Shown piece by piece: positions 4,798 to 55,500 of a stretch of 64,000 nt of DNA. The stretch covers positions 1-64,000 of the forward strand of contig JAUNHV010000006.1 of assembly GCA_030523725.1 (NCBI GenBank), read 5' to 3'. The notes below the pieces were generated by a model that saw nothing but the letters and a program-made list of their open reading frames with translations, did not search any database and was not told the origin of the DNA. The translations under genes and the position numbers were made by a program. How positions within the stretch are numbered: the first letter of the stretch is position 1; every line of letters starts with the position of its first letter. This stretch comes from Synergistaceae bacterium. GTDB lineage: Bacteria; Synergistota; Synergistia; Synergistales; Synergistaceae.

Positions 4798-4800
4798 TGC

Positions 4801-4829
4801 TTGACACCTATATTATAAATGATTAAAAT
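4801..4829 (+). promoter_or_regulatory. Sigma-70 promoter for pgi
   Basis: TTGACA at 4801-4806, 17-bp spacer, TAAAAT at 4824-4829. It lies immediately after the adhesin terminator and 59 bp before the pgi start codon. Confidence 0.8.
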
Positions 4830-4888
4830 AACGCTGATGTGAGGTCATCTTGCGTATCATAAAAATTAAATATAAGGAGTCGACACAG

Positions 4889-10853: not shown

Positions 10854-10928
10854 GGGCGGGTAGCTCAGTGGGAGAGCATCTGCTTTACACGCAGGGGGTC
10901 GTAGGTTCGAAACCTATTCCGCCCACCA
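10854..10928 (+). tRNA. tRNA-Val (anticodon TAC)
   Basis: A 75-nt cloverleaf with encoded CCA: acceptor GGGCGGG with TCCGCCC, anticodon loop TTTACAC, T-loop TTCGAAA. Confidence 0.97.
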
Positions 10929-10949
10929 TTAAGATAACCCTTAACACAT

Positions 10950-11026
10950 GGAGCTGTAGCTCAGTTGGTTAGAGCGTCGGCCTGTCACGCCGAAGGTCGC
11001 GAGTTCGAGTCTCGTCAGCTCCGCCA
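10950..11026 (+). tRNA. tRNA-Asp (anticodon GTC), copy 1
   Basis: A 77-nt cloverleaf with encoded CCA: acceptor GGAGCTG with CAGCTCC, anticodon loop CTGTCAC. Identical to the copy at 11260-11336. Confidence 0.97.
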
Positions 11027-11079
11027 TATTTAAGCAATTGCGAAACGGTTGAAGGACACATCAACCATATTGCTTAGGT

Positions 11080-11155
<76 letters not shown>

Positions 11156-11158
11156 TTT

Positions 11159-11233
11159 GCGGAAGTAGCTCAGGGGTAGAGCACAACCTTGCCAAGGTTG
11201 GGGTCGCGGGTTCAAATCCCGTCTTCCGCTCCA
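11159..11233 (+). tRNA. tRNA-Gly (anticodon GCC), copy 1
   Basis: A 75-nt cloverleaf with encoded CCA: acceptor GCGGAAG with CTTCCGC, anticodon loop TTGCCAA. It starts 3 nt after tRNA-Phe. Identical to 11357-11431. Confidence 0.97.
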
Positions 11234-11259
11234 TTTTTATCTTTGTTTTATTTTTTTAT

Positions 11260-11336
11260 GGAGCTGTAGCTCAGTTGGTTAGAGCGTCGGCCTGTCACGC
11301 CGAAGGTCGCGAGTTCGAGTCTCGTCAGCTCCGCCA
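11260..11336 (+). tRNA. tRNA-Asp (anticodon GTC), copy 2
   Basis: Identical in all 77 nt to 10950-11026, including encoded CCA. Confidence 0.97.
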
Positions 11337-11356
11337 TTTTTAACAGGCGTATTTGC

Positions 11357-11431
11357 GCGGAAGTAGCTCAGGGGTAGAGCACAACCTTGCCAAGGTTGGG
11401 GTCGCGGGTTCAAATCCCGTCTTCCGCTCCA
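11357..11431 (+). tRNA. tRNA-Gly (anticodon GCC), copy 2
   Basis: Identical in all 75 nt to 11159-11233, including encoded CCA. Last tRNA of the cluster. Confidence 0.97.
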
Positions 11432-35146: not shown

Positions 35147-38100
35147 ATGAAGGCAACAGAATTTTCTTTAAGACATCCAGTAACAGTTTTAATTATTACA
35201 ATGGCGACAATTTTCTTTGGTATATATTCTTATACCCACATGGGAGTGGAACGTATGCCAAATGTTGAATTTCCTTTGGTCGTTGTAAGCACTACCATGG
35301 ATGGTGCTAGCCCTGCAATAATGGATAGTGACGTTACGGACGTTTTGGAAGCACGTATCAACACAATTGAAGGTATTAAAGAAATGACATCATACTCTTA
35401 TGAAGGCAGATCTTTAATCGTAATTGAATTTGAGATGGATAGAGATATTGATTTTGCTGCATCTGATGTGCGTGGCAAGGTTAATATGGCACAAAACAGC
35501 CTTCCTGATGACTGTGATGTTCCGCAGGTTGATAAATATGACCCTACAGACAGACCTGTTATGCAGATTGCAATTAAAAATGACGGAAGAACAAGCCAAA
35601 AAGATATGTCTCGCTTTGTTGACAAAATTGTGCAGGAACAGTTGCAAACTGCAAAGGGTGTTGGACGTGTTTCTTTGTCCGGTTTTTCCGAGCGTGAAAT
35701 AGATATCTGGCTTCGCCCGGACGATTTGGAAAGATATAAGCTTACTCAGAAAGATATAAGGACAGCTCTCTATAACAAACATGTTGAACTTCCTGCAGGG
35801 CGTGTTGAAGGGCCGACGAAGGAATATGGTATTCGTATTATTGGTGAATACCCAGATGCTACCCAGTTGGAGAATCTGCCGATTGCGGTTAGAAATGGAG
35901 CTGTTGTGCGTTTGCGTGATGTCGCACGAGTGGAAGACACCTTCAAAGAAAAACGCAGCATGGCAGTTTACGAAGGCAAGAAAACAATCATTGTTCAAGT
36001 CAGAAAGCAAAAAGGTGCAAATGAAGTCTTGCTCTCAAAGATGGTAAAGGAAAAACTAGCACAACTAAATGCAATAGCACCAAAAGGACTATCCCTTGAG
36101 GTTGTGCGAGACAACTCTATATTTATTATAAATTCCATGAACGGTGTCTTTTGGGATACAATCATGGCAATTTTGCTTACTTCCATAATAATGTTTGCTT
36201 TTTTACGCACTCTAAGAGCTACTTTTATTGCCGTTATTTCTATTCCTGTTTGTTTGCTCGGAAGCATAATTTTCTTGAATTGGTTTGGACTTACCATAAA
36301 CAACATGAGCATGATGGGAATTTCACTTGCTGTTGGTATGGTTGTTGATGCAACAACGGTTATATTAGAAAATATTTATCGTCATAAAGAATTGGGCAAG
36401 AATGCTTTTGTTGCCTCAGAAGAGGGAACAAATGAGGTCGCTTTCTCTGTTATTGCAGGTGCAGCCACAACGCTTGCAGTCTTTTTGCCGATAGCCTTTA
36501 TGGGTGGTATCATGGGACGTTATTTCAACACCTTTGGTATTACAGTTGCAGCTACAATTTCAATTTCACTCCTTGTTTCTGTTACCTTGACGCCGTATCT
36601 TGCGTCTCGTTTGTTAGGGCGCAATTTGCCGCCGAAGAAATGGCAAATTGCTATGGAGCAGCCGCTCATAAACCTTGAAAAAGCATACAGAAAAGCTCTT
36701 GCCTATTGCACAAGTCACAGACGGAAAACTATGTATGCGGCTTTTGCTTTTTTTATTTTAGGACTGATAATAGCTTCAACACTAGGAAGTGAATTTTTTC
36801 CAAAAGAAGACCAAGGGCAGATTAGAGCGGAGTTTGAATTACCAGCAGACTCGTCGCTTGGTGTTACGACAGAGATAACGAGGCAAGCAATAGAACTTAT
36901 TCAAAAAGATCCTGCTGTTGCCTATACCTTTGGTTCTATTGGTAGTGGTGCAGGTGAAGAAGTTTACAAATCCACTATTCAAATTAAATTGGTAGACAGG
37001 AAAAAGCGAGACAACGCTACAGTTGTTCAAAAGAGATTAAGAGAGCTTTTATCACGCTTCAAAGATGCAAATGTAAAGATGGGTAGCTGGGGTTCGTCAG
37101 ATGTAACTGCAGTTATACACGGTCCAACAAGCGAAGCCTTGGCTGAGATTGGCGAAAAAATGAAACGTGATATTGAGCAAAACCCATCAAACGGTCTTGC
37201 AGACGTTATCTTGGGGTTGAAGATGGACAAACCTCGCATAAACCTATATTTGAATCGTGCTTTGGCAGATGACCTGGATATCTCGATTCGTGACCTTTCA
37301 AGCGAAATGCTTACATGGTTTATGGGGGATCAAATTGGCACCTTTAACGACGGTGGATATCGGTATAAAATTCGTCTTAGATCTGAGGCACATGCCAGAG
37401 ATGATATTTCAGAAGTTCTTCGTACTCTCATTAAGACAAAGACCGGAGAGATTATTCAGGCAGACGGTATAATAACGCCAGAGATTGGACCATCTCCAAC
37501 TGTTATCACAAGACATGACCGTCAGCGTTCTATAAAAATTGAAGCAAACGTTAACGGAATTGACCCTGGACAGGGGTACAAAAAACTAGTCGAACTCTTC
37601 AACAAATATCAGCCACACGACGGGACATTTAGTATTGTTCCAAGTGCGGAAACAAGACAAATGCAGGAAAGCTCTACCCACATGATGACAGCCCTTGTCT
37701 TTGCTATCATTCTTGTCTATATAGTTATGGCAATTCAATTTGAATCATTCTTGCATCCTTTTACTGTTATGTTCTCATTACCACTTATGACGGCAGGTTC
37801 CTTTGGACTTCTTGCCATGGCAAACGTAAATAGCTCAGTCATGAGTATGATGGGGCTTATCTTGCTTGTCGGTATTGTTGTCAATAATGCAATTATTCTT
37901 GTTGACTTTATAAACCAGTTACGTGAGCGTGGTATGGATAAGGTTGCTGCCGTCTTGGAAGCTGGCCCGTTACGTCTTCGCGCAATTCTTATGACGACTG
38001 TCTCAACTCTTATCGGGGCAGTTCCTGTTGCCCTTGCACTCAGTGAAGGTGGTGAAACAAGACAGCCAATGAGCCTTGCTATCATCGGTGGACTTACTAC

Positions 38101-39658
38101 TTCAACATTACTTACACTCTTTGTTATACCTGTCATTTACCTCATATTTGATGATATAAAGGATAGGACAGGAAGGAAATTAAGGCGTTATAAAGCATAT
38201 CTGCGTTACAAGGAAATACAGTCATATAAAAAGGATAGAGAAATGACAACTTCACATGTAAATGCGAAAAATATAATGACAAAATCAACAAAATCAAATA
38301 CAACGAATATATTAATAGTATTCCTCCTCAGTGGCTTGTCTCTAATTTTTGCTTGCAGAGTTTGCCTTGCTGAGACGAAATTGCAACAACCTACACAAGC
38401 ACAAGAGATACAGATGTCAGAAGGCTTGACTCTACAAAACGCAATAGATATTGCCTTGAAAAACAATGCTAATCTGCGCACACTTGCGCTGGATGTAGAA
38501 AAAGCAAAGGCATCGCGCCTCGTTGCTGACGTTGCGTTTTTGCCGTCACTGACCATTGCGGGCAATGCGACACGTCAAAAGTTACCTGTGGTGCCAGCAT
38601 TGGACAAATATACGGATACCTCCGTTGGTGCGACTCTTACGCAGATTATTTATTCTGGTGGCAAGGTGCCAGCAGGCGTACGTCAAATAGCTGCCCAATA
38701 TGCGATGGCACTTGCAACCTATGAAGAGGGCAAAAATGACGCCTTGAGAAATGTGTATAAATTGTATTTTGATGTTGTACTTTGGCATACCGCAGTTGAA
38801 ATTGCAGAAGATGCAAAAAAAACTGCTGAGGCAATCCTGAAAGAAACACAAACAAAGGTAAAATTAGGTTTGGCAAATAAGCTGGAATTGATAAGAGCAC
38901 AGCAACAGGTAGCAGAGAGTGTGGCAAAGGTTGCGGATAACAAGTCAGATTTGCGCCTTGCAGAAGCTAACTTGTACTCTTTTCTAGGAATTCCATTGAA
39001 GGAAAAATGTCAATACAGCGACGAAATTTTTGAACCTTCTGTTGACCTAAATGATGAAGCGTCAATTGCTACGGCAAGGCAACATAGGTATGATTTAGTT
39101 CGTCTTAGAAAACAACTGGATGTTCAAAAGGAACAAATAAAAATTGAGCGTGCTGCACTGCTTCCTACACTTTCTGCTTTTGCCAAGGGCAGTTACCTAA
39201 ACCCGTACAACAGACAGGATACTAGTGGAGATACTTGGAGTGTAGGACTTACGCTCGATGTGCCTCTTTTTGATAGAAATGTTGCACGTCGCGCTGTAAA
39301 AATTGCAAAGGCAACTTTGGAGCAAAACAAAATTTCTTTAACACAAAAAGAGCTTGACATTGAAAACAATGTCAAAACGGCAATTGCCGAAATATTGGGC
39401 TTTCAGGATGCTGTAAAATCGAAAAAACTGGCGGAAGATTTGGCAAAGGAATCACTTCGTCTTGCACGACTCGGTTACAAAGAGGGAGTTACACAGCAAG
39501 TTGACCTCTTAAAAGCGCAAGATGATTATGCACAGGCACAATATAATTACGAAATGGCGAAAAAGAATTATTTGATGGCTGTAGTTGCCTTGAAATACGT
39601 TGAGGGCACTTTAATCAATTGGACAAACGGGCAAACAATGCCAAATGGGCAAAATTAA
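35147..39658 (+). CDS. RND efflux pump fused to a TolC-like outer-membrane factor
   Basis: One 1503-residue frame. Residues about 1-1030 form a complete RND (AcrB/MexB-type) pump: N-terminal HPVTVLIITMATIFFG helix, a TM4 motif GMVVDATTVILENI, and a second half with GIVVNNAIILVDFINQLRERG and the C-terminal VIPVIYLIFDD. Then comes a basic linker, a signal-peptide-like segment (about 1051-1076, ending CLAE), and a full outer-membrane-factor domain (about 1090-1490, two TolC repeats: LTLQNAIDIALKNNANLRTL and the QVDLLKAQDDYAQAQYNY end). The pump spans the inner membrane and TolC the outer, so either internal cleavage or internal initiation (site at 38231-38245) is expected. The adaptor gene follows 17 nt downstream. 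GAGG lies 10 nt before ATG. Confidence 0.92.
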   Translation: MKATEFSLRHPVTVLIITMATIFFGIYSYTHMGVERMPNVEFPLVVVSTTMDGASPAIMDSDVTDVLEARINTIEGIKEMTSYSYEGRSLIVIEFEMDRDIDFAASDVRGKVNMAQNSLPDDCDVPQVDKYDPTDRPVMQIAIKNDGRTSQKDMSRFVDKIVQEQLQTAKGVGRVSLSGFSEREIDIWLRPDDLERYKLTQKDIRTALYNKHVELPAGRVEGPTKEYGIRIIGEYPDATQLENLPIAVRNGAVVRLRDVARVEDTFKEKRSMAVYEGKKTIIVQVRKQKGANEVLLSKMVKEKLAQLNAIAPKGLSLEVVRDNSIFIINSMNGVFWDTIMAILLTSIIMFAFLRTLRATFIAVISIPVCLLGSIIFLNWFGLTINNMSMMGISLAVGMVVDATTVILENIYRHKELGKNAFVASEEGTNEVAFSVIAGAATTLAVFLPIAFMGGIMGRYFNTFGITVAATISISLLVSVTLTPYLASRLLGRNLPPKKWQIAMEQPLINLEKAYRKALAYCTSHRRKTMYAAFAFFILGLIIASTLGSEFFPKEDQGQIRAEFELPADSSLGVTTEITRQAIELIQKDPAVAYTFGSIGSGAGEEVYKSTIQIKLVDRKKRDNATVVQKRLRELLSRFKDANVKMGSWGSSDVTAVIHGPTSEALAEIGEKMKRDIEQNPSNGLADVILGLKMDKPRINLYLNRALADDLDISIRDLSSEMLTWFMGDQIGTFNDGGYRYKIRLRSEAHARDDISEVLRTLIKTKTGEIIQADGIITPEIGPSPTVITRHDRQRSIKIEANVNGIDPGQGYKKLVELFNKYQPHDGTFSIVPSAETRQMQESSTHMMTALVFAIILVYIVMAIQFESFLHPFTVMFSLPLMTAGSFGLLAMANVNSSVMSMMGLILLVGIVVNNAIILVDFINQLRERGMDKVAAVLEAGPLRLRAILMTTVSTLIGAVPVALALSEGGETRQPMSLAIIGGLTTSTLLTLFVIPVIYLIFDDIKDRTGRKLRRYKAYLRYKEIQSYKKDREMTTSHVNAKNIMTKSTKSNTTNILIVFLLSGLSLIFACRVCLAETKLQQPTQAQEIQMSEGLTLQNAIDIALKNNANLRTLALDVEKAKASRLVADVAFLPSLTIAGNATRQKLPVVPALDKYTDTSVGATLTQIIYSGGKVPAGVRQIAAQYAMALATYEEGKNDALRNVYKLYFDVVLWHTAVEIAEDAKKTAEAILKETQTKVKLGLANKLELIRAQQQVAESVAKVADNKSDLRLAEANLYSFLGIPLKEKCQYSDEIFEPSVDLNDEASIATARQHRYDLVRLRKQLDVQKEQIKIERAALLPTLSAFAKGSYLNPYNRQDTSGDTWSVGLTLDVPLFDRNVARRAVKIAKATLEQNKISLTQKELDIENNVKTAIAEILGFQDAVKSKKLAEDLAKESLRLARLGYKEGVTQQVDLLKAQDDYAQAQYNYEMAKKNYLMAVVALKYVEGTLINWTNGQTMPNGQN
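38231..38245 (+). promoter_or_regulatory. Possible internal ribosome site and start for a separate TolC product
   Basis: AAGGA (38231-38235) lies 7 nt before an in-frame ATG (38243, codon 1033) exactly between the pump and outer-membrane domains, just upstream of the signal-peptide-like segment. Initiation here would give a 470-residue exported TolC. Confidence 0.5.
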
Positions 39659-39675: not shown

Positions 39676-40851
39676 ATGCGAAAATTTAGAGATATGTCAA
39701 AAACACAAAAAATAATTTTCTATTCTGTCTTGGCAATCGTTGCTATTTCACTTTACACAAGGCGTGAGAAAATCATGGAAGCTTTTCGAGGTGGCGGAGA
39801 CACAAAAGGGGCTGGTGCCTTTGTTCAAACAGTTAAGGTAAGAAATGACAGCACGATTGCAGAAAAAATTGTTCAAAACATGTCGATTGATGCCTTGAAA
39901 CGCACAACCCTCACAGCTCGTGTTACTGCGCGTCTTGTCAGACTTTTAGCAAGAAAGGGTGACTATGTCAGGAAGGGACAACTTCTTGCTGTCCTTGAAC
40001 ACTCACAACAGACAGCAGCAGTTGGTGCCGCGAGGGCACAGGTGGTTGCTTCACAAGCCGATTCTGCGGTTGCAAGGGCAAGAATGACAAATGCGAGAAC
40101 TGACCTTGATAGATATGAAAAGCTCGTAAAGGAGGGCTTTTACACACAACAGCAGTTGGAAGCAAAGCGCACGGAATATACTGCCTATGCAGCAAACTAC
40201 AATGCCTCTCGTGCAAAGGAAAGACAGGTAGCAGCGGAACTAAACAAAGATATTTCCGCTGAATCTGATTACAGCATTTATGCACCAATGAGTGGTAAAA
40301 TCCTAAACCATTATGACCTAACAGAAGGAGCAATGATAAGCACTGCAAGTAACGTCTTTGATATTGCAGACATAAGTGTGTTCAAGGCTACACTCCAAGT
40401 TGCAGAAAAGCACATTATGTCAATAAAAAAAGGAATGCCTGTTATCTTAAAATTTGATGCGTTTGGTGATAAAGAGTTTCAAGCAAGAGTGCTTGCAATT
40501 GATGAATACATTGAGCCAAACACTAGGACAAGTAAGGTCGAGATAATCCTTGATAACAATCGAGATGCAAATGGTCTTTTGCGTGCTGGCATGTTTGGTA
40601 CAGCAACAATATTACTAAAAGAATATAGCAATGTGGTTACTATTCCAAAGTCTGCAGTTCATGAAAGTGAAAATGGTTTTTACGTTTGGGTAGTTTCTAA
40701 TGGAAGAGTACAGATGCGAGAGGTAAAAAAAGGAATTGAAGATGGTGAAATAGTTCAAATTACCGGCGGTCTTGTTGGTGGTGAAGAAATTGTAACAGTT
40801 GGTGGTAATAATCTTTCACCAAACGATTCAGTTAGTGTTACACAAAAATAA
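39676..40851 (+). CDS. RND membrane-fusion (periplasmic adaptor) protein
   Basis: A 391-residue HlyD/AcrA-type adaptor with an N-terminal membrane anchor (about 12-27), barrel-sandwich/lipoyl halves (LARKGDYVRKGQLLAVLEH and SIYAPMSGKILNHYDLTEG), an alpha-hairpin (about 110-185, rich in Ala/Arg/Lys), a beta-barrel and a membrane-proximal domain (VVTIPKSAVHE). It bridges the pump and TolC across the periplasm. Unlike the common order, the adaptor gene comes after the pump. There is no lipoprotein Cys. Terminator follows. Confidence 0.93.
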   Translation: MRKFRDMSKTQKIIFYSVLAIVAISLYTRREKIMEAFRGGGDTKGAGAFVQTVKVRNDSTIAEKIVQNMSIDALKRTTLTARVTARLVRLLARKGDYVRKGQLLAVLEHSQQTAAVGAARAQVVASQADSAVARARMTNARTDLDRYEKLVKEGFYTQQQLEAKRTEYTAYAANYNASRAKERQVAAELNKDISAESDYSIYAPMSGKILNHYDLTEGAMISTASNVFDIADISVFKATLQVAEKHIMSIKKGMPVILKFDAFGDKEFQARVLAIDEYIEPNTRTSKVEIILDNNRDANGLLRAGMFGTATILLKEYSNVVTIPKSAVHESENGFYVWVVSNGRVQMREVKKGIEDGEIVQITGGLVGGEEIVTVGGNNLSPNDSVSVTQK

Positions 40852-40856: not shown

Positions 40857-40901
40857 AAAGCAGCGCCAATCATAAATTATGTGGTTGGGCTGCTTTTTTT
40901 A
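40857..40901 (+). terminator. Terminator after the efflux operon
   Basis: AGCAGC plus CCAA (40859-40869) pair with TTGG plus GCTGCT (40885-40894), followed by a TTTTTTT tract. The next gene's ribosome site begins right after it. Confidence 0.85.
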
Positions 40902-40917
40902 TAAGGAGAAAAAAATT

Positions 40918-42132
40918 GTGGCTTTTTATCAATTTACTGCAATAAAGAACAGTAACGATGAAATTGTGTCTGGCGAGATACAAGCACAGAATGAAGCAGA
41001 TGCGCTTGTACAAATAAGAAAAACATTTGACAATGTCGTTTCTTTAGAAGAAGTAACAGCCATCTTGGAAAGGAAGAATAACAAAAGCAATAAATTTTCA
41101 TGGCGTTTATTACACAGTAAACATGTCTCAGTTGGCGAAAAGGCTATGATGTTCAGGCGACTCTATATGCTTATTTCGGCTGGAATGTCTAATGCAGATG
41201 CTATAGCGATTCTAAAGGATAGTGAAGGAAATTTAGTACTAAAAGAAATATTGACGCAAATTTTTAACAGTGTGAAGAGAGGATGTAGCTTGTCTGTTGC
41301 CGCAAAAGGAGTGCCGAATTTTTTGGGTGGAAATGTGCTTGCCCTTTTACAGGTTGGTGACGAGACTGGTCACATGGAAGATGTGCTTAAAAACATTGCA
41401 CAATATTTAGAAGAGGTTGCAACGACGAGAAAAAATCTTGCTATTGCCTTGGCTTATCCTATTTTTTTGCTTACATCATTTTTTCTTGTTTTTTTTATTA
41501 TAGTGCTTTACTGTGTGCCTCGGTTTGAAAAGGCATTTGAACCAATAATAAAGAGCGGTGGTTTACCTTTTGTCTCTCGGATAATATTTGCCGTGTCAGA
41601 TTTTATTTGCAATCACTATTTCATCTGTGTAATTTGTGTTTTCTTGCCGATATTTATTGTTTTCCACGCATTGCGTGGAAAATGGCAAGACAAGTTGTAT
41701 TTTATTCCTCTAGTGAAAAAATCTTTTATGGCAGCTGCAATGAGAAATTTGTCCCTTCTTATTTTGTCAAATGTTTCTGCCGTGAAAGCCACAGCACTTG
41801 TTGCGGAGGAGAGTAATTGCTCGCAAATAAAAGAAATATTTTCACTTGCTACGGACTCTCTTGAAAAGGGCGAAGCAATAGATGAAGCACTAGGAAATCA
41901 TCTTACAAGGCTGGATAAAAGCCTTTTGTCTGTCGGCGTTACTGGGGCAAAACTTGGAGAGGTGTGTAGGTTGATTTCATTGCAATATAAAACAGAGGCA
42001 GAAGTTTTACAAAAGAAATTCTTGTCGCTTCTTGAACCGTGCCTTGTGCTTTTGATAGGTTTACTGGTCGCATTGGTAGCTTTTGGAATTTATCTGCCCT
42101 GCATAAAGATGATAGAAGAAATTTCTATGTAG
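40918..42132 (+). CDS. GspF/PilC-type inner-membrane platform protein
   Basis: A 404-residue protein of the type II secretion/type IV pilus platform family. Two T2SSF domains are visible: the first with RLYMLISAGMSNADAIAIL and LLQVGDETGHMEDVL, the second with SLLILSNVSAVKATALVAEE and LLSVGVTGAKLGEV, each followed by membrane helices. GTG 40918 with AAGGAG 9 nt upstream is preferred over the upstream TTG-type start. No ATPase, pilin or secretin gene is adjacent in the window, so it is an orphan here; the remaining machinery must lie elsewhere if it exists. Confidence 0.88.
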   Translation: MAFYQFTAIKNSNDEIVSGEIQAQNEADALVQIRKTFDNVVSLEEVTAILERKNNKSNKFSWRLLHSKHVSVGEKAMMFRRLYMLISAGMSNADAIAILKDSEGNLVLKEILTQIFNSVKRGCSLSVAAKGVPNFLGGNVLALLQVGDETGHMEDVLKNIAQYLEEVATTRKNLAIALAYPIFLLTSFFLVFFIIVLYCVPRFEKAFEPIIKSGGLPFVSRIIFAVSDFICNHYFICVICVFLPIFIVFHALRGKWQDKLYFIPLVKKSFMAAAMRNLSLLILSNVSAVKATALVAEESNCSQIKEIFSLATDSLEKGEAIDEALGNHLTRLDKSLLSVGVTGAKLGEVCRLISLQYKTEAEVLQKKFLSLLEPCLVLLIGLLVALVAFGIYLPCIKMIEEISM

Positions 42133-42404
42133 AAATTATCAAATTTTTAATTTTTTTAGCCATAAAAGCCAAAACACGTAGCATTGCAAAATTTATTGCA
42201 ATGCCTCGTTAGTCTGTACCAGATAAAACGGTAAAACTTGATTTTAGCAGCAATTTAATTTACGTGGTATAATTGCCCATAACTGGGGAGTGTGGAGTTA
42301 GCTATAATGAACATAGAAATCTTAAAGGCTGGCTACCCTGATAAAAAATAAAATACTTTATGTACCTTATAATTTCAAAAAAAAATTACAGGGAGGATGT
42401 CATA
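42133..42404 (+). promoter_or_regulatory. Intergenic region with hairpin and extended -10 promoter before autotransporter 1
   Basis: A 9-bp hairpin GCATTGCAA/TTGCAATGC (42181-42204) without T tract and an extended -10 (TGGTATAAT, 42265-42273) are the only signals I can support. The remaining leader of about 130 nt is AT-rich; I see no riboswitch consensus. Confidence 0.5.
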
Positions 42405-45400
42405 ATGAAAACTCTAAAAATATTTATTGCATCAGTATTAACTGTGGTGTTTATTTTTGGCACGAGTTCTTTGGCGTGTGCGAGTGGGTTGATGGATATT
42501 ACCAACATAATGCCTTATAAAACGGGACAATCGCCAGCCAGCACGATATACTTTGGCAAGAACAGCAAGGGAAGTGGTCTGCCACCAATCCAGTGGCGGG
42601 TGTTGGCAGTAAATGAGGCTGCAGATACCTACGGTAATAATGGAGTGCTCCTATTGTCTCAGAACACATTGTATACGCAGGGTTTTGGAGGCAACCAGTG
42701 GGGGACATCAAATATACGAGGGAGTTTGTCTGGGCTAGCCGGAGGGAACACTCCAAGCACTGGTGTTGCATACAGTAGTTTAACAGATGACAGTTTTGCA
42801 AAGAAGGCGTTTGTTGAGGCAGAGTATAATGCGATACTAGATACGGAACACAATGCAGGAGGAGGCTACAAAGGTAAAGACATCCGATCAATAGACAGAC
42901 TATTTCTACTGAGTATAGATGAGGTAGGATTAACGTATTTCAAAAATAAAAAAGACCGAGTGCCAACTGCTTATTCGACGGCGGAGTGGTGGCTACGTTC
43001 GCCTGGCGGTAGTGTACCTAAACGTTATCCACCTGAACTTGACTACCTTCAGTATACAGTCGACATATTCGGCAATACCTGTGTTTGCCAGGTAGCCTAT
43101 TTTTGTTGGGACGTCCGTCCTGCTTTAAATTTGGATCCAAACAAGGTCTTGTTTTTATCCGCTGCGGAAGCAACAAAAAGTGATGGTACAAACTACGACA
43201 AGAACAGCAAATCTCAGGTTAGTGTGGGTGACGGTTTTGCCTTAGCAAATTACGATGGCTCAAAAGGTTGGAAGGTGACACTGCTAGATGCGTATGACGA
43301 GACTACAAATCAGAATGGCATAAAAGCACCAACGGATGTAACGGTAACACAGGATGGTCACATTGGTAATAAAACCGTTAATGAGCTTGCACAAGAGACT
43401 ATAGATCATGGTAAAAAAGAGATGGATTTATCAAGCGGTTTGACCTATAGAAACTGTGGTGGTATATCGGTGTCTTATAAGGGAAAGGATACAAAGGCAG
43501 ATTTTGTATCAGCAATAGCAGCTACAGGTGATGGAACAGTCGACAATCCCTATGCGTATGAGAATTATGCAAAAATATCTGCTAACGCTTCCGAGCAGGC
43601 AAGGACTCTGCCCTTGGGCAATCTTGACTCTAACAAAGAATACACACTGCTTATTTTCGCTGAACAAATTGGAAAAGATACAAGTGGTAGAACAGACTAT
43701 ATGACAGATTATGCGTCAGAAACGCAAAAGTTTAAGATTAATAATGGTGTGACTACTTATGTTGGCACGCTTAAAAGCACATACAAAGATAACGAACTCA
43801 CTGCAAAATTGGGAAGTAATTTTAACCTTTCCTTTGATGCTGGAGAATATATGACAGGGTTAAATGTTGTCGGCGATAGCACAATTACAGCAGGTTCGTC
43901 TGGCACAACCCTCAAGAGAAATGTTGACATAGCAGAAGGTGCAACACTAAAAACAGTAAACGCATTTACTTTCAAAGGAGTCAATACAATTGATGGAACA
44001 CTTACTGGAAAAAATGTGACATTATCTGGTGGAACAACAACTGTTGGAACAAACGGAAAAATAGAAAACAATCTTAAGGTAGCTAGTGATGGTGCGCTTT
44101 CGCTTGATGCAAATAAATATGGTGTAGATGATGGAGTTAAAAATGTAACTTCCAATGAAGGAACAATTGAGCTTACCGGCACAGGAACAGCTGGTGTGCT
44201 TGGCAAACATATTACCAACGGTGGGAAAGTTGTACTTAGCACAGGAACATCTTTCGCAGAAGGTGTCAAAATAATTGGTGGAGACGTGGAGCTTGAAAAT
44301 GATGTTGAGTTTTCAGCCACAAACCTTGACGGAATAAATAACTTAACAGCTCCTACTACTGCAAATGAAGCTGCAATATACAATTTTGCACTCAAAATAG
44401 AAGATAACAAGGGAATATCTCAACACGACCAAATAAATTTATCTGGAGTGGCTACAGGGCATATAAAGCTTGGGGATGTAGTGTATTTACCCGGTTCTTC
44501 AGATGATACACATTGGACTGTGAACGAATCAAAACAAGTGCAATATTTAAGTAACATTGTAACAGGTACGAATATTGTAATAGATAATACTTTAGGTGTT
44601 GCAATGCCAGGATCGGATGGTGCAAGTTACTTCTTCAGCCAGGCTTACGATCCTAATGATGCCTCAAAACCTTTGATTGGTTATTTAAATGTGAAAAGGG
44701 GTAATACCTACACTTTGTGGGAAGTCGTGGGATCCGATACGCGAGAAGATGGGTCAGATATGTCACCTGAACAGAAAAAAGAAGCAAGAAGTGTAAATAT
44801 ATATACACTGAATGCTAATGGTAGTGGTGCATACGTAGCAGGTAAAGACTTTCCTGCTCTAACTAGGGCAGATGGTGAATCCGCTCGCACTCTAACAATA
44901 AAAGGTCTTGGAACTACAGCCTTCAATGGTGGTGGTCATACAGGAATAGATGTAGGCTCTGGTAATAACACTCTCACTATTGATGGTGTTACCGAAATTT
45001 CTGGTTGGAAAGATGGTGCGGCTTTTACTGTTACAGGTGGAAACCTCAGATTTACAGGAGACAATACACTTGAACTGAAAGACGGAATAATGAACAAAAA
45101 TGGCGGATCGGTTATTTTTGACCAAGATGTTATATTGACAGGAAAATTATTTTGTCAAAACACTGGCAACTACCTAAATAAAGAAACTAGAACATTGACA
45201 GTTGCAGACATCTCAAACCTTCTCATGACCCAGCTTGATAACAATGGAATATTGAACCTTGGTGATGGTTCAGCAGCAGACAAAACGTTAGGTACACAAA
45301 TAAATTATGTGCCATATACTACAGGTGAAGCAACACTCAATTTTAATGGTAGTGGAACAATCACAGCAACGGAAACAATTACGCAAAAGGTGGTCAATGT

Positions 45401-48400
45401 TAATACGAATCTAAATATGCAAAAAAGCCTTACTACAAATGGTGGAACAAATGTTGCCGATGGCAAGAATCTCACGATAAGTGCTAGCAACCTTAATAGC
45501 AATGTAGTTGCAAATGGAGCTAACCAAAGTGGCAGGGTTACGCTCAAGGACGGAACGCTCGGAAATTATACAATAACAGGCGGTGCAATAGTTATCGATG
45601 GAGCAGTAACAGCAAGTGCAGACAATCTTAAGTCAAATAAGGGAATAACAAATGCCAGCAACACTCTTACCCTGAATGGTGGAATGCTTATTGATAACGT
45701 GTATGATGCAGACGGAACACTAAAGATAGGTGGTACAGTTGAAATTGCATCTGACAAAACTGTTGAAAACAAAGTTGTGATAAACGGAACAAATACGCTT
45801 ACAGCAAATGCGAATAGTTTAAAAAGTGCAACTGCAATATCCAACGCAAGTGGCATCTTCAAGGTAACTGGCGGAACAATTTTAGCTGGTGTAACAGGAG
45901 CAGGCACAACAGAAATTGGTGACGGAACAAATTCCGCTGAGGTAACACTGGGCAATAATGCTTCAATAGCAGGCAAGGTTGCAATAAAAGCACAAAGCAA
46001 ATTCATCGCAGATTTTACAAAGTTAAGTGGTTCAATAGACAATGCTGGCACCTTTGTTGTTACGGGTTCCACACCGATTACGATTGGTAAGCAAATTACA
46101 GGAGTTGGCACGACACAATTTGGCGACGGTTCAAGTGCACTAGCAGTAACATTTGAGGGAACTGGTCAAATAGACGGTAATGCAAAAATTGCAGCAAACA
46201 GTCAATTAACTCTAAGTGACTTTTCAAACATAGGTGGTGATTTAACAGTAGATGCAAATGGTAAGCTTATTATTACAGCAAATGGTCCAATAAATAAGGA
46301 AATAAAAGGGCTAGGCACAACACAAGTTGGGGATGATTCAAATCATGTTGATGTTACACTTGGTGATATTGGCTCAATATTCGGTGATGTTGCAATAAAC
46401 GCACAAAGCAAGCTCACAGTTGAAGATTTTATAAGGATAGGTGGCATAATAGATAATGCTGGCAAGCTTGTTCTAACAGGAGCAAATATGATAGATTGGA
46501 AAATCCTAGGTGCAACAGGAATAACAGAAATTGATACCGCTCAAGATAGTGATACTGTTAAAATTGGTAAAAATGGTGCCATACTAGGTAGCGTTGCTCT
46601 AAATAATGGAGAACTTCAGCTTAATGCTGACAAATATGGAACAGATATAAAGCTTAGTAGTTTTGTAGGAGGAACACTGCATTTTACAGATGGTTTAATT
46701 ATGAATGACGTAGTTGCTAGTGGTACTACTTCTGCCCATGTGATACTTGATAGTGGTGTTTCTTTAGCTAAGGATGTCAAGATTGATGGTGGTGAAAATA
46801 AGGCAGTAAATGTTGAATTCAATGAAGATATTGAGTTTATAGCAGGAAATCTAGTTAACGTTAATGATTTTACTTCAAAAGGTGCTAAATATACTTTTGG
46901 TGCAAATGTCCTAAAGACATCAGGAGAACCATATGTAACGGTAGATAAAATTACACTAGCAGGAGAGGTTACTGGCAACTCAAAAATTAAGTTAGGAAAT
47001 ATCAATCTAACTGGTTCAGATGAAGGTTTGGGTGATGACAGTTGGAAAGTATATACTTGGAAGACAGTCCAATACATAGAGGCAAATTCACTAAATGACG
47101 TATTATTGGATGGCGAAGTAACTACAACACTGCCTGGTGGTACTGCCTATACCTTTCAGCAAGGATATGAAGTTAATAGTGATGGCACTCTTAGTGATGT
47201 AATAAAGCACGGTTATGTAAGTGTTAAGAGAGGTAACACCTATACCTTGGCGGAGGTAGTAGGGCTTGATAATTGGGAGGATAAGAGCAAGCACGGTGGT
47301 GTCGATATGACCGATGAACAAAGGAATGAGGCAAGAGGCGTAGATATCTATACCCTTAACGCAAATAATTCTAGCGGTGATACCTACTCTGCGACGTACG
47401 ACCTTGGAGAGTTTCAGACAAAAACTGGTGAAACAAATAGAAGCCTATTAGTAAGAGCTTTTAGTGATAGTCCTCTCAAGTTTTTGGGAGGCGGCCATGC
47501 AGGAATACAATTAAATAAGACAACCGATGTTCTTGAAGTGAGGAACATCTCAGAAATTTCTGGTTGGAAAGATGCACAATTTGCTAGGAATAATGGAACA
47601 ATTAAGTTTACAGGGAAAAATTCTCTTGTTCTTTCAGACAAAATTACAGGAACTGGAATAACACAGATTGGTGATGTAGAAGAACAAAATATTGTTACTA
47701 AGGTTGAGTTAAAAGATAATAGTGAGATACAAGGAAGAGTTAAAATTTTAGATAATGGACAACTTGTCCTTGATGATTTTTCAAAGCTGAAAAATAGTGT
47801 TACCAATGATGGAACAATCTTTTTCTCTGGTAATGAAATTGCCACGGCAATATCGTCATCTTACGCAGATGTAAAAGGAATTGTTGACTTGCAAAAAGCA
47901 GCGAAAATTGCAGCAGAGATTAACAATCAGAATATTATACTGAGAGAAGGGTATTCAAAGGTCGATCAGGCAAGTTACATTGCAAATAACGATTTAACCT
48001 TTAATGGTGGTGGTTTTGATTTCAGAAAACAAGGCGTTGTACAACATTACGTAGTCAAAAACATCAATTTTATGGGTGATGGTAATTTAATGCTTGGTGT
48101 AGACCTTGCAAATAAAGCGATGGACACTCTTAATGTAGCTGATGGTGGAACCGTTACCGGTTCAGGAAAGCTTCATATTACAGCTTTAACACTTTTGTCT
48201 GACGCAAAACAGAACAAAACAAATATTGCCTTCTCAGAGACAGACGCCTTGAAGGGACATGTCGTGTCAGACGTTACACATGTAGCATCTGACATGTGGA
48301 AATACCTCGTTGCCTATGATAAAGAGACTGGTGAATTTGCCTTCACAAAGAGTGGCAGAAGTGAACCAGACAAGCCAGAGGTTAGCGAAACAGTAATGTC

Positions 48401-49268
48401 TATTTCTGATACCGCTCAGGCACTAAATGTGTCATGGTTGAATAATATTAACAACCTACAAAAACGCCTTGGTGACCTCCGTGGAGGAGAAGCGAGCAAC
48501 ACAGGCTGGGCACGTTTCCAGAGAAGCAACGATGATCACAATGGAGCAAGAAAACTCAACGTTTCTGGTAACCTCTATCAGCTTGGTTATGACGTTGCCT
48601 TAAAGAACAATACGGCTGCTCGCGGTTACTTTGGTCTTTCTGTTGAGCATTTTGATGGAAGCCAGTCATATAAGATTGGTGGTGGCGATGTAAAATCCAC
48701 ATCACTTAGCGCATACTACACAAAGATTTATGACAGTGGTCACTACTTTGACTTCATCTTCCGTTATGGTAGATATGAAAGCGACACAACAAGCTACGAC
48801 GCAGGACTTTCCACAAAACTCGACTACGGTATGAACGGAGTAACCTTATCCGGTGAATATGGATATAGAGCAAATATTGGTAAGAATGGATTCTACTTCG
48901 AGCCACAGGCAGAAGTTATCTATGGTTATTTAGCTGGAGCAAAGAAGACAAGTAGCAGAGGCATCTTGGCAGACATAGATAGCACAAACCACTTTGTGAC
49001 AAGACTTGGTGTTGCCTTGGGTAAGAAGGTTAAAAACTTTAATTACTACTTAAGAGGCAGCTACTATCATGACTTTGCTGGTTCAACAAACATCTTGTAT
49101 GGAGATGCATCATACAAACAAGACAGTGCGAGAAACTGGTGGGAACTTTCCCTCGGTGGAGGCTGGAACATGACAGACGCAAGTTACTTCTATGCAGAAC
49201 TCACGAAACACTTCAAGGATGTAAGTAACTCGATAAACTTTAATTTAGGTTTCCGCTTCACACTGTAA
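42405..49268 (+). CDS. Autotransporter 1: DUF6273-like head, repeat passenger, beta-barrel
   Basis: A 2287-residue type V autotransporter. It has a signal peptide (cleavage near ACA-SG), then an N-terminal domain with the DUF6273 pattern (PIQWRVLAVNE, VLLLSQNTLY, FLLSIDEVG, WWLRSPGG, DVRPALNLDPNKVLFLSAAEA; about 25-260). A long passenger rich in beta-helix-type repeats follows (TTQIGDGTN-like, DNAGTFVVTG-like), with two copies of a VKRGNTYTLxEVVG module (about 760 and 1605). A linker (NLQKRLGDLRGGE) leads to a 255-residue autotransporter barrel ending NLGFRFTL. ATG 42405 has GGAGG 8 nt upstream. It is presumably a surface adhesin or ligand-binding protein; the ligand is unknown. It shares long identical tracts with 49535-59041. 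Confidence 0.9.
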   Translation: MKTLKIFIASVLTVVFIFGTSSLACASGLMDITNIMPYKTGQSPASTIYFGKNSKGSGLPPIQWRVLAVNEAADTYGNNGVLLLSQNTLYTQGFGGNQWGTSNIRGSLSGLAGGNTPSTGVAYSSLTDDSFAKKAFVEAEYNAILDTEHNAGGGYKGKDIRSIDRLFLLSIDEVGLTYFKNKKDRVPTAYSTAEWWLRSPGGSVPKRYPPELDYLQYTVDIFGNTCVCQVAYFCWDVRPALNLDPNKVLFLSAAEATKSDGTNYDKNSKSQVSVGDGFALANYDGSKGWKVTLLDAYDETTNQNGIKAPTDVTVTQDGHIGNKTVNELAQETIDHGKKEMDLSSGLTYRNCGGISVSYKGKDTKADFVSAIAATGDGTVDNPYAYENYAKISANASEQARTLPLGNLDSNKEYTLLIFAEQIGKDTSGRTDYMTDYASETQKFKINNGVTTYVGTLKSTYKDNELTAKLGSNFNLSFDAGEYMTGLNVVGDSTITAGSSGTTLKRNVDIAEGATLKTVNAFTFKGVNTIDGTLTGKNVTLSGGTTTVGTNGKIENNLKVASDGALSLDANKYGVDDGVKNVTSNEGTIELTGTGTAGVLGKHITNGGKVVLSTGTSFAEGVKIIGGDVELENDVEFSATNLDGINNLTAPTTANEAAIYNFALKIEDNKGISQHDQINLSGVATGHIKLGDVVYLPGSSDDTHWTVNESKQVQYLSNIVTGTNIVIDNTLGVAMPGSDGASYFFSQAYDPNDASKPLIGYLNVKRGNTYTLWEVVGSDTREDGSDMSPEQKKEARSVNIYTLNANGSGAYVAGKDFPALTRADGESARTLTIKGLGTTAFNGGGHTGIDVGSGNNTLTIDGVTEISGWKDGAAFTVTGGNLRFTGDNTLELKDGIMNKNGGSVIFDQDVILTGKLFCQNTGNYLNKETRTLTVADISNLLMTQLDNNGILNLGDGSAADKTLGTQINYVPYTTGEATLNFNGSGTITATETITQKVVNVNTNLNMQKSLTTNGGTNVADGKNLTISASNLNSNVVANGANQSGRVTLKDGTLGNYTITGGAIVIDGAVTASADNLKSNKGITNASNTLTLNGGMLIDNVYDADGTLKIGGTVEIASDKTVENKVVINGTNTLTANANSLKSATAISNASGIFKVTGGTILAGVTGAGTTEIGDGTNSAEVTLGNNASIAGKVAIKAQSKFIADFTKLSGSIDNAGTFVVTGSTPITIGKQITGVGTTQFGDGSSALAVTFEGTGQIDGNAKIAANSQLTLSDFSNIGGDLTVDANGKLIITANGPINKEIKGLGTTQVGDDSNHVDVTLGDIGSIFGDVAINAQSKLTVEDFIRIGGIIDNAGKLVLTGANMIDWKILGATGITEIDTAQDSDTVKIGKNGAILGSVALNNGELQLNADKYGTDIKLSSFVGGTLHFTDGLIMNDVVASGTTSAHVILDSGVSLAKDVKIDGGENKAVNVEFNEDIEFIAGNLVNVNDFTSKGAKYTFGANVLKTSGEPYVTVDKITLAGEVTGNSKIKLGNINLTGSDEGLGDDSWKVYTWKTVQYIEANSLNDVLLDGEVTTTLPGGTAYTFQQGYEVNSDGTLSDVIKHGYVSVKRGNTYTLAEVVGLDNWEDKSKHGGVDMTDEQRNEARGVDIYTLNANNSSGDTYSATYDLGEFQTKTGETNRSLLVRAFSDSPLKFLGGGHAGIQLNKTTDVLEVRNISEISGWKDAQFARNNGTIKFTGKNSLVLSDKITGTGITQIGDVEEQNIVTKVELKDNSEIQGRVKILDNGQLVLDDFSKLKNSVTNDGTIFFSGNEIATAISSSYADVKGIVDLQKAAKIAAEINNQNIILREGYSKVDQASYIANNDLTFNGGGFDFRKQGVVQHYVVKNINFMGDGNLMLGVDLANKAMDTLNVADGGTVTGSGKLHITALTLLSDAKQNKTNIAFSETDALKGHVVSDVTHVASDMWKYLVAYDKETGEFAFTKSGRSEPDKPEVSETVMSISDTAQALNVSWLNNINNLQKRLGDLRGGEASNTGWARFQRSNDDHNGARKLNVSGNLYQLGYDVALKNNTAARGYFGLSVEHFDGSQSYKIGGGDVKSTSLSAYYTKIYDSGHYFDFIFRYGRYESDTTSYDAGLSTKLDYGMNGVTLSGEYGYRANIGKNGFYFEPQAEVIYGYLAGAKKTSSRGILADIDSTNHFVTRLGVALGKKVKNFNYYLRGSYYHDFAGSTNILYGDASYKQDSARNWWELSLGGGWNMTDASYFYAELTKHFKDVSNSINFNLGFRFTL
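45703..46423 (+). repeat. About 720-bp identical block shared with 52968-53688
   Basis: Passenger DNA of autotransporter 1 is identical, as far as I can compare by eye, to autotransporter 2 at a constant offset of 7265 bp. Identity starts near TATGATGCAGACGG and ends near the first substitution (GAAGAT versus GAAAAT). Confidence 0.85.
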
Positions 49269-49445: not shown

Positions 49446-49534
49446 GTTGAATAATTTTATAGAAAATGCGTAAAATTGATTTTGAAACGTCAATATCATA
49501 CACAATAGAAATCTGTTTTAGTGGGGGTAGTGTT

Positions 49535-52500
49535 ATGAAAAACAGTAAAAAATTAATAGCTATGGTCATAATAATGATATTTATTTTAAGCAATGCGGCG
49601 CCAGCGTTAGCTTCACCGAGTGGCGGACTAGTGCAGATTACGGATTTTAGTGGTGGTAATGGTGGTTTTTTCAAGGGAAATAGTGAAACCATTTACTTTG
49701 GCAGTTACTGGCAGAATACGCTAAAAAGTGGTGCAACAGATAAGAGAAATCCGGCTAACTATGAAAAGACGGGAATCAAATGGCGAGTGCTTTCTACTAA
49801 TGCACCATTGAATCCGGATGATGCCAGTAAGACGGGAGTGTTGCTGTTGTCAGATCAGGTGCTATATGGGGCTCAGTTCAACAGTAGATGGAGAACTCCA
49901 AAAGACTCTTGGAATTATGGGCGCAAACAAGATATAGCAGAGGGACAAGCAAATGAATGGGTAATAAGGTCGGCAGGGCGAACTGAAGGGCAGAGCACCC
50001 AGTCAGACATACGTGAGACGCTGAACACAAGAGAAAAAAATCCAGATGACAGTGGTAAGGGATTTGCGGCAGATGCATTTAGTGATGGGGAATACGGTGC
50101 GATAGCTGAGACAACACACATTTTCGGTGGAGAAAAACTAAAAGGTTATTATAAAAGGAATTATGTTTCTAGCGAAAGAATATTTTTATTAAGCTATGAT
50201 GAGGCAATAGATTCAAGCTATGGTTTTTCATCGGAGAAATGGGATCATAATTCAAGACAGGCTACCGTTACAAATTACTCATACTATATATCGATGTATG
50301 GAAATCCCGAACGTGGGGTATTACGTAGTTGGTGGCTGCGTTCGCCTGCCCTGATTTATAATTACGAAGTAGCTCGTGTCACACGTGATGGCAAAATTGA
50401 AAATAGAAGAGGAGAAAATGTAGGCTATGGAGTCACTGGAGTTCGTCCAGCTTTTAATCTGAATCCAGAATCGATTTTATTTTTATCTGCCGCAGAAGGT
50501 GGTAAAGGGGATGTTAACGAAGGCGAAGGCTTCAAGCTAGACACTGGCTATGATGGCTCAAAAGGCTGGAAGATGACATTGAAGAGTTCAGATATTGCAA
50601 CACCAACAGGCGTAGATGTTACACAGGACGGTCACATTGGGTATAACACTGTTGATGAGCTAGCAAAAGCGACTGGAACTGGTGAGATGGATTTATCAAA
50701 TGGCTTGACCTTTAGAAAGAGCGGTAATATAAAAGTAGCTTACACGGGAAAGGATACAAAGGCAGATTTTGTATCAGCAATAGCTGCCACAGGTGAAGGA
50801 ACAGCTGATAATCCATATGTCTATGAAAATTATGCAAAAATATCTGCTAATTCCTCTGAATCCAATAAAGCTCTGCCTTTAGGAAATCTTGACCCAAACA
50901 AAGAATATACATTGCTTATTTTTGCTGAACAAATTGGGAAAGACTCAAATAATAGCACAAACTATATGACAGATTATGCATCAGAAACACAAAAGTTTAA
51001 GATTAATAGTGGCGAGACAACCTATGTTGGCAAGCTCAGTAATACATACAAAGAAGCGGAGCTTACCGCAAAATTGGCAGGCAAATTTAACCTTTCCTTC
51101 GATGCAGTAGAATATAAGACAGGGCTAAATGTTGTTGGTGATAGCACAATTACAGCAGGCATAGCAGGTACAACCCTCAAGGGAAATGTTGACATAGCTG
51201 AAGGTGTAACACTCACAACAGCAAACGCATTTACTTTCAAGGGAAACAATACTATTGATGGAGCTCTTACGGGAGAAAATGTGACATTATCGGGTGGAAC
51301 AACAACTGTTGGAACAAAAGGAAAAATAGAAAACAATCTTAAGGTTGCTGGTGGAGGCACGCTTTCGCTTGACGCAAATAAATATGGTGTAGAAGATGGG
51401 GTTAAAAATGTAATGCTTTCTGGCGGAACTGTTAGGCTTACCGGAACAGACACAACTGGTGTGCTTGGCAAGCATATTATCAACGGTGGGAAAGTTGTAC
51501 TTAGCTCAGGAACATCTTTCGGAGAAGGAGTCAAAATATTTGGTGGAGAGGTGGAGCTTGAAAAGGATGTTGAGTTTTCAGCTACAAATCTTGACGGAAT
51601 AAATAACTTGGCAGCTCCTACTACTGCAAATAAAGCTGCAATATATAATTTTGCTCTTAAAATTGAAGATAACAAGGGAATATCTCAGCACGACCAAATA
51701 AATTTATCTGGAGTGGCTACAGGGCATATAAAGCTTGGAGATGTAGTGTATTTACCCGGTTCTTCAGATGATACACATTGGACTGTGAACGAATCAAAAC
51801 AAGTGCAATATTTAAGTAACATTGTAACAGGTACGAATATTGTAATAGATAATACTTTAGGTGTTGCAATGCCAGGATCGGATGGAGCAAGTTACTTCTT
51901 TAGCCAGGCCTACGACCCTAATGATGCCTCAAAACCTTTGAGTGGTTATCTGAATGTGAAAAGGGGTAATACCTACACTTTGTGGGAAGTCGTGGGATCC
52001 GAAAAGCGAGAAGATGGCTCAGGTATGTTACCTGAACAGAAAAACGAAGCAAGAAGTGTAAATATTTATACACTGAATGCTAATGGTAGTGGTGCATACG
52101 TGGCAGGTAAAGACTTTACAGCGTTGAAAGCACCAGGGGCGATGGAGGAACAGCTCCCCCGAGAACTAACAATAAAAGGTCTTGGGGCTATAGCTTTCAA
52201 GGGTAACGGTTCTACAACAGGCATAATTATAAATAGTCTTAAAAATCTTATTATTGATGGTGTTACCGAAATTTCCGGTTGGAAAGATAACACAGCCTTT
52301 ACTGTTAATGGCGGAGATCTCAAATTTACAGGTGATAATACACTTGAATTGAAAGACGGAATAATGAATAATAATGGTGGATCTGTTATTTTTGACCAAG
52401 ATATTATATTGACAGGAAAATTATCTTGCACAAATACAGGTAACTACCTAAATAAAGAAACTCGAACAATGAAAGTTGCGGATGTTTCAAACCTTGCCAT

Positions 52501-55500
52501 GCCTGAATTTATTAACAATGGAATATTGAACCTTGGTGATGGTTCAGCAGCTGACAAAACGTTAGGTTCAAAAATAGATTATGTGCTAGATACTGCAGGT
52601 GAAGCAACACTCAATTTTAACGGTAGCGGAACAATCACAGCAACGGAAACAATTGAGCAAAAGGTGGTCAATGTTAATACAAATATTAATATGCAAGCAG
52701 ACCTTACTACAACTAATGGAACAAATGTTGCTGATGGTAAAAATCTCATGATAGGCGCTAGCAATCTCAAGAGTGCTGTAAATGCAACAGGAACAGCTAC
52801 AGTTACACTCAAGGATGGAACGCTCGGAAATTATACAATAACGGGAGGTGCAATAGTTATCGACGGAGATGTAACAGCAAGTGCAGACAATCTTAAGTCA
52901 AATAAGGGGATAACAAATGCCAGCAACACCTTTACCCTGAATGGTGGAATGCTTATTGATAGTGTATATGATGCAGACGGAACACTAAAGATAGGTGGTA
53001 CAGTTGAAATTGCATCTGACAAAACTGTTGAAAACAAAGTTGTGATAAACGGAACAAATACGCTTACAGCAAATGCGAATAGTTTAAAAAGTGCAACTGC
53101 AATATCCAACGCAAGTGGCATCTTCAAGGTAACTGGCGGAACAATTTTAGCTGGTGTAACAGGAGCAGGCACAACAGAAATTGGTGACGGAACAAATTCC
53201 GCTGAGGTAACACTGGGCAATAATGCTTCAATAGCAGGCAAGGTTGCAATAAAAGCACAAAGCAAATTCATCGCAGATTTTACAAAGTTAAGTGGTTCAA
53301 TAGACAATGCTGGCACCTTTGTTGTTACGGGTTCCACACCGATTACGATTGGTAAGCAAATTACAGGAGTTGGCACGACACAATTTGGCGACGGTTCAAG
53401 TGCACTAGCAGTAACATTTGAGGGAACTGGTCAAATAGACGGTAATGCAAAAATTGCAGCAAACAGTCAATTAACTCTAAGTGACTTTTCAAACATAGGT
53501 GGTGATTTAACAGTAGATGCAAATGGTAAGCTTATTATTACAGCAAATGGTCCAATAAATAAGGAAATAAAAGGGCTAGGCACAACACAAGTTGGGGATG
53601 ATTCAAATCATGTTGATGTTACACTTGGTGATATTGGCTCAATATTCGGTGATGTTGCAATAAACGCACAAAGCAAGCTCACAGTTGAAAATTTTATAAG
53701 GATAGGTGGCACAATAGATAATGCTGGCATGCTTGTTCTAACAGGAACAAATACGATAGATTGGAAAATCCTAGGAGCAACAGGCACGACACAAATTGGT
53801 GATGGAACAAATCCTGCTGAGGTAACACTGGTAAGTGGTGGTTCAATAGCAGGGAATGTCGCGATAAAAGCAAACAGCAAATTCACTGTTAAAAATTCCA
53901 CTACAATTGCTGCAATTTCTAACGAGGGCACATTAGAATCAGAGGTGGAGAAACTTGTCGGCACAAACAGTATTACAAATTCTGGCACTTTTGTAACCTA
54001 CGGAGAATTGAATAAGCTATCTGGGCTGACAAATTCTGGTACTGTCCAAATTGCACCTGGACAAACATTAAAAGTGACAGAGGACATGGTGGGTGATAAG
54101 AATTTAGGTGGAACACTAGACTTGAATGACAGCACATTGGATATGCAGAAAGCTGAAGGAACAGGAGCTGTCTATTCAACCCTTGCTGTAGACTATTTGA
54201 AAGGCAACGGTGCGTTAAAAATTGAAGCAACTGTAAAGAATGGTGCAGAAAATGCGGACAAAATTGCCTATGCAAATGTTGCTGGCTCTCCTACTGTAAC
54301 ACTCACAAATATAATCTTAAAGGAAGGCTTTACAACACACACTACCGGAACTCCACTGGTAAAAGATGGCTTGTTGACAGTGTTATTAGGTGATTCTACC
54401 AATGTAACGTTCAATGTTGGCACGAGCAGTGGAGGTAGCATTTCCACACAGTTAGGACATTACCTTTACACGTTCGAAAGAGGAACAGGTTTCGGAACAC
54501 TAAAAGTTACGGAGACTGTCAGCGAAAACATAACGTTAACAGATTACATTACTGGAACTACAGAAGGACGTTTGATAAACACATACGCCTTTGCGGAAAA
54601 TGAAACCTTGAACAGCTCTGTTACAACAGGCTCAGTATTTGGTGACACAAGAACTGACTATAATATTGGAATGAATGGCAAAAATCTGACTGGTAATGGT
54701 AACGATGGTATTGTGGTTGCAGCTGACAAGACGTTAACCATTGATGGTGACGGTGGCACAATTTCTGGCTTTAATACCGCCTTAACAGTTAATGAAAATG
54801 GAACATTAGGTATCTATGATATTAATTTTGGAGAAAATGCAACTGCTGCAATTTCTAATAATGGAACATTGAAACTATCTGGTGAAAACACATTTGTTTC
54901 CAAACTCACAGGAACAGAGACCGCAACTACGACAAACTACGGAAGGTTAAACATTTCTGCTGATAATTTGGACGTGGTATTGACAAATGCAGAAAATGCA
55001 ACCTTAAATCTCGGCAGCGGGAAATTAACAAAAGCAATCCTAGGAACTGGCACAACGCAAATTGGTGATGGAACAAATAATGTTAAGGTAACACTAGGTG
55101 CAGGTGTTTCAATGGAAGGCAATGTCGCAATAAAAGCAAAAGGCAAATTCACTGTTGAAAATTTCACTACAACCGCTGCAATTTCTAACAGTGGGACATT
55201 GGAATTGTTAGGTGAAAACACATGTGCTTCCGAACTCACAGGAAGTGGAGTTACGACGAACAATGGAACGTTAAACATTTCTGCAAATAATTTAAAGTTA
55301 TTTGCATTGACGAATTACGGAACAGTTATTCTCACGGGTGGAACGTCAACAAGCGATAGAGCTACAATGAATTCAGCAATTGTTGCAACTGATACAAGCA
55401 AAGGCGAGCTAAATTTCGGCAACGGAACAGCTGCAACGTTTTTCAGTAATGATAAGGCTATCACTCAAAATGCAATTAATATTAAAGCAAATGCAGATGT

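Follow-up and report, generated by a model that had tools for sequence, protein, structure and literature searches.

Genes at the locus

We analyzed a 64,000-nucleotide stretch of a Synergistaceae genome (contig JAUNHV010000006.1), here called the window, in which an RND efflux pump and a TolC-like outer membrane channel share one open reading frame (ORF) that is followed by the gene for a periplasmic adaptor (Table 1). The stop codon between the pump and channel genes has been lost, leaving one chain of 1,503 residues. Since neither half is truncated and both are conserved (identity to relatives of up to 68% for the pump and about 30 to 43% for the channel), this is not a chance ORF. The source genome (1.55 Mb in 15 contigs) is rated 100% complete and 0% contaminated. 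Across all 15 contigs, the fused pump was the only full RND pump found; one other match, on contig C13, was short and covered part of the family.

The original prediction, made from the letters of the DNA, described a complete pump and a complete channel in one stop-free frame, and the domain matches reported below bear this out. It also assumed a diderm Firmicute (Negativicutes) setting. That was mistaken, as the host belongs to the Synergistaceae (Synergistota) and the pump's closest named relatives come from Synergistes sp. and Synergistaceae.

TABLE 1 Features of the fused ORF and the adjoining adaptor gene (window positions)
Feature	Position	Strand	Basis or remark
Fused pump-channel ORF	35147-39658	+	ATG to TAA; 1,503 aa; 166.8 kDa; zero internal stops
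RND pump part (ACR_tran, residues 5-1001)	35159-38149	+	Pfam; MdtB closest solved relative by sequence
Basic cytoplasmic linker, residues 1004-1054	38156-38308	+	Composition
A5 run	38228-38232	+	Junction DNA read
Shine-Dalgarno-like AAGGA	38231-38235	+	7 nt ahead of internal ATG at 38243
Internal ATG, Met1033; candidate independent channel start	38243-38245	+	Start-site energies
Met1044 codon	38276-38278	+	Channel alignment; pairs with start Met of relatives
Internal predicted signal peptide, residues ~1044-1075	38276-38371	+	Alignment, hydrophobicity, and model; putative cut site by the (-3,-1) rule
Mature outer membrane factor, residues 1076-1503, 47.5 kDa	38372-39655	+	Pfam, fold model, and alignment
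Periplasmic adaptor (membrane fusion protein), third operon gene	39676-40851	+	TIGR01730 (RND_mfp); 17 nt past the fused ORF

The pump and channel parts

The pump part matched PF00873 (ACR_tran) over residues 5 to 1001 with 829.7 bits (E value, 4e-249). Multidrug models gave 787 bits compared to 367 bits for CusA/CzcA models, with scores below the strict NCBIfam cut-offs, and the closest solved chain in a sequence search was MdtB. The pump is therefore of the multidrug (HAE1-like) type, as had been proposed. The proton relay of AcrB (Asp407, Asp408, and Lys940) is not kept. In the motifs VDATTV (36329 to 36373, residues 395 to 409) and VVNNAI (37871 to 37909, residues 909 to 921), which by motif we take to correspond to these AcrB positions, Asp407 is present while Asp408 is replaced by Ala and Lys940 by Asn. 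The altered motifs are common to the fused pump and its relatives, one of which has Gly at the second Asp. These differences make it less likely that the protein works exactly like AcrB, but they do not affect its identification as an RND pump. In the family tree, the branch leading to the fused pump (35147 to 38191) is unusually long, at 0.81 changes per site, which reflects fast evolution within a small genome.

In the channel part, PF02321 (OEP) matched in two stretches, the better of them at residues 1305 to 1485 (E value, 4e-59), and residues 1094 to 1491 matched the TolC family model TIGR01844. A phmmer search with this part found OprM, SilC, CmeC, and TolC. An AlphaFold2 model of residues 1004 to 1503 (pLDDT, 81) had the two-repeat TolC layout, and its target-normalized TM-scores against solved TolC, OprM, CusC, and other channels were mostly about 0.70 to 0.80, with a maximum of 0.80. 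The alignment showed that the conserved channel positions of the family are retained. With these positions kept and a full TolC fold modeled, the channel is still under constraint.

Between the two parts, the end of the pump is followed by a basic linker, a single hydrophobic segment (residues 1055 to 1073), and the channel. The linker has 15 Lys or Arg residues versus 4 Asp or Glu residues, and its first stretch (residues 1005 to 1038) is predicted to be helical. The hydrophobic segment (Kyte-Doolittle value, 2.46) forms the core of a putative signal peptide with a stretch of 15 hydrophobic residues and a basic n-region, which is internal rather than N terminal. It lies where the channels of relatives have theirs, with Met1044 aligned to their start Met. 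Both the basic linker and the signal-peptide-like helix of the original prediction were thus found. By the (-3,-1) rule, the predicted cleavage site is CLA↓E at residues 1075/1076. With Cys at -3 and Arg at -5, this site departs further from the canonical pattern than the AXA sites found in relatives. LIFA↓C would also be compatible with a loose lipobox.

Two separate genes are the family norm

The operon order pump, channel, adaptor is present throughout the Synergistaceae. The adaptor does come last at this locus, as had been pointed out, but since the order is family-wide, its place is normal for the family and not the reverse of the usual arrangement. In all 34 homologous junctions that we could read, a stop codon ends the pump gene, and pump and channel are separate genes. 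The channel start in these relatives mostly lies between -11 and +20 nt from the pump stop, often in ATGA, TGATGA, or TAATGA overlaps, and the channel genes that we inspected carry their own N-terminal signal peptides. The original prediction had counted separate genes at this junction in homologues as evidence against the fusion. Such pairs are indeed the rule; however, they mark the fusion as derived and do not make it unreal, and an independent second case was found in another genome (G159, described below). Nor do the data fit an ancient fusion shared through one origin, as the stop is present in all 34 of these junctions and the two fusions represent two origins.

Several other RND operons of the phylum (L057, L058, L064, and L065) have the channel ATG straight after the pump stop and in the same frame, so a fusion is one substitution away. 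Other RND pumps of relatives gave open frames of 1,535 to 1,578 residues that we considered as additional fusions. Their DNA has a stop followed by an in-frame channel start, and they were rejected.

Remnants of a stop/start overlap at the junction

Small changes at the junction restore separate genes. Removing one base from the A5 run gives the pump the tail QSYKRIEK and a TGA at 38244, while adding one base ends the pump at a TAG at 38236; either way, the tail has a length that is usual for the family. Alternatively, a single substitution turns codon 1032 from GAA to TAA. In the +1 frame, the TGA at 38244 overlaps the Met1033 codon (ATGA), and a TAATGA stop/start remnant is found at Met1044. 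These out-of-frame overlaps are of the same types as the stop/start pairs of relatives. Together with the nearby one-base routes, they make stop loss at a translationally coupled junction the likeliest history, and the fusion would have arisen through a change of one base or one codon. As read from the alignment, Met1044 is the apparent ancestral start of the channel.

The same observations could mean that the genes are really separate and that the stop is masked by a base lost from or gained in the A5 run or by a base-calling error. A one-base change in either direction would give a normal pump tail and a stop that overlaps or abuts the channel start, and every family relative with a readable junction has a stop. 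Such an indel is also formally conceivable because the fusion is known from a single genome of its genus. However, the intact ORFs of the window, including those of 2,302 and 3,191 residues, contain 314 homopolymer runs of at least five bases (87 of them at least six), which makes an assembly error at this one unlikely. Given also the completeness, purity, and contig number of the genome, and the occurrence of the same type of fusion in the independent genome G159, we regard an error as distinctly improbable.

A different possibility is that most of the channel comes from ribosomes that initiate independently at Met1033 or Met1044, as they do in relatives with two genes, with read-through producing a pump extension or a minor product. 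The AAGGA ahead of Met1033 has a Shine-Dalgarno energy of -5.6 kcal/mol, on par with the starts of the pump (-6.3 kcal/mol) and adaptor (-5.9 kcal/mol), and Met1044 would be the ancestral start. However, about 10% of internal ATGs match the energy of Met1033, Met1044 has no Shine-Dalgarno sequence, and with the stop absent, initiation must compete with elongating ribosomes crossing the site. These points, and the lack of a conventional start ahead of the signal peptide core in the G159 fusion, lead us to consider this account unlikely as the main route. Since Met1033 has a usable Shine-Dalgarno sequence, some channel may also be made separately, by initiation at Met1033 or Met1044 alongside read-through.

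A second fusion in another Synergistota genome

The junction region was searched against 188 Synergistota genomes. Among the matches listed, only two spanned the junction without a stop: the fused ORF itself and a match on contig 38 of genome G159. Six further candidates (G104, G100, G107, G178, G049, and G175) proved on inspection to have separate genes or no channel part. The G159 fusion (L076, G159:C38) runs from 1667 to 6094 and encodes 1,475 residues with no stop, with the adaptor next. It is 61% identical to the fusion studied here in the pump and 35% identical in the channel.

The junction of the G159 fusion reads RRFNAWRRLREQRSRKNPDAGSSEIGTSAAIFLMTGILLLTPLSPAEA↓DTK, and its cut site, AEA↓D, is a textbook AXA site. 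Reading this junction, we found no ATG, GTG, or TTG between the pump C terminus and the signal peptide core. In G159, a separate start that leaves the signal peptide intact is therefore unlikely, and translation as a single chain is hard to avoid.

The pump tree assigns the two fusions to distinct supported clades, with a single origin in 0% of bootstrap trees, and so the fusion arose at least twice. The G159 genome is placed in another family, whereas its pump groups within the Synergistaceae. This conflict makes transfer or mis-binning of the G159 contig possible; the second origin does not depend on which of the two applies.

A proposed polyprotein cut by signal peptidase

Taken together, the stop-loss fusion is real, derived, and recurrent, and the internal signal peptide probably divides its product to give a tripartite pump of the ordinary kind. 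We put at about 0.6 the probability that the chain is a self-resolving polyprotein, which signal peptidase I would cut to yield a tripartite pump of the HAE1 type. The pump would insert with its C terminus on the cytoplasmic side, and the signal peptide inherited from the channel would then serve as an internal signal that starts a fresh round of Sec export. Signal peptidase I would cleave after about residue 1075, and the released channel would trimerize in the outer membrane and join the pump via the separately encoded adaptor. Cleavage, assembly, and efflux function are what we infer for the product. One chain would supply pump and channel at 1:1, which fits a complex of trimer with trimer.

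The original prediction had offered either a polyprotein or a tether that fixes the stoichiometry, and of these the signal peptidase cut is the better supported. In an uncut chain, the signal peptide helix would act as a 13th membrane helix that ties the pump to the channel at 1:1. Both partners being trimers is compatible with this, and the cleavage site as predicted is imperfect. The difficulty lies in the geometry. The periplasmic part of AcrB is about 70 Å tall and sits below the channel. In the AlphaFold2 model, about 20 residues (1076 to 1095) separate the signal helix from channel helix 1, and we took the reach of such a tether to be at most about 70 Å, compared to a needed distance of at least 120 Å. 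The first channel helix is part of the equatorial belt, halfway up the 100-Å periplasmic barrel (PMC8277102), and on these model distances a 20-residue tether would fall far short of it in the docked complex. The textbook AXA site in G159 also argues for cleavage, and we think it highly improbable that the chain stays whole.

The polyprotein reading can be taken further, in that an HAE1-type pump and channel divided between two membranes by an internal signal peptide may have arisen repeatedly and been kept for 1:1 synthesis. We offer this extension tentatively and consider it doubtful.

The locus provides a natural test of whether Sec can export an outer membrane protein that is attached to the C terminus of a 12-helix inner membrane protein. 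It also indicates that adjacent, translationally coupled genes merge easily when the downstream product brings a signal peptide of its own. Domain-fusion methods, which take one ORF as a sign of physical tethering, would be misled here if the fusion is processed. An unprocessed fusion, in contrast, would be hard to reconcile with current models of how tripartite pumps assemble.

Relation to known systems

The component parts are ordinary, and only their joining is unusual. The two-gene HAE1-type operons of the Synergistaceae (L004 to L054) have the same order, orthologous parts, and the same signal peptide position but keep separate genes, with a stop that overlaps or directly adjoins the channel start; the genes are fused only here and in G159. 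With MdtABC, AcrAB-TolC, and MexAB-OprM, the fusion shares a pump near MdtB, a channel of the OprM/TolC fold, and an RND_mfp adaptor. It differs from these systems in having pump and channel in one ORF, and its relay differs from that of AcrB.

In the CusA/CzcA-TolC fusions of Bacteroidetes, an OEP domain likewise follows an RND pump within one chain; unlike in the fusion studied here, their pump is of the metal type, and they belong to a different phylum. The one Bacteroidota plasmid record that we searched had no pump-channel fusion among the pumps examined and contained a 1,276-residue CusA with no channel domain. Open-literature searches for RND-outer membrane factor fusions in Bacteroidetes and for the FbcH polyprotein described next returned nothing usable. 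We also found no paper there that describes a pump-channel fusion of the HAE1 type, a result that argues only weakly for absence. In FbcH, the cytochrome b/c1 polyprotein of Bradyrhizobium, a polytopic membrane protein and an exported protein are likewise joined by an internal cleaved signal peptide, although that protein belongs to a respiratory complex and both products reside in one membrane. QsdH of Pseudoalteromonas is a natural fusion of a GDSL hydrolase and an RND transporter (PMC3466314). As in the present case, an RND transporter is joined to a second exported domain, but there the partner is an N-terminal enzyme, and no outer membrane channel is present at the C terminus.

Neighboring genes

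A type II secretion F (PilC-like) gene (40879 to 42132) adjoins the 3' side of the efflux operon. Beyond it, two neighboring giant ORFs (42360 to 49268, 2,302 residues; 49466 to 59041, 3,191 residues) both contain DUF6273; an autotransporter beta-domain is present as well in the first, whereas Pfam found none in the second. At the edge of the window, a TTG-initiated ORF of 1,557 residues (51 to 4724) encodes a trimeric autotransporter adhesin with a YadA anchor and stalk. Six tRNA genes (Val, Asp, Phe, Gly, Asp, and Gly) are clustered at 10854 to 11431, with Asp and Gly each occurring twice.
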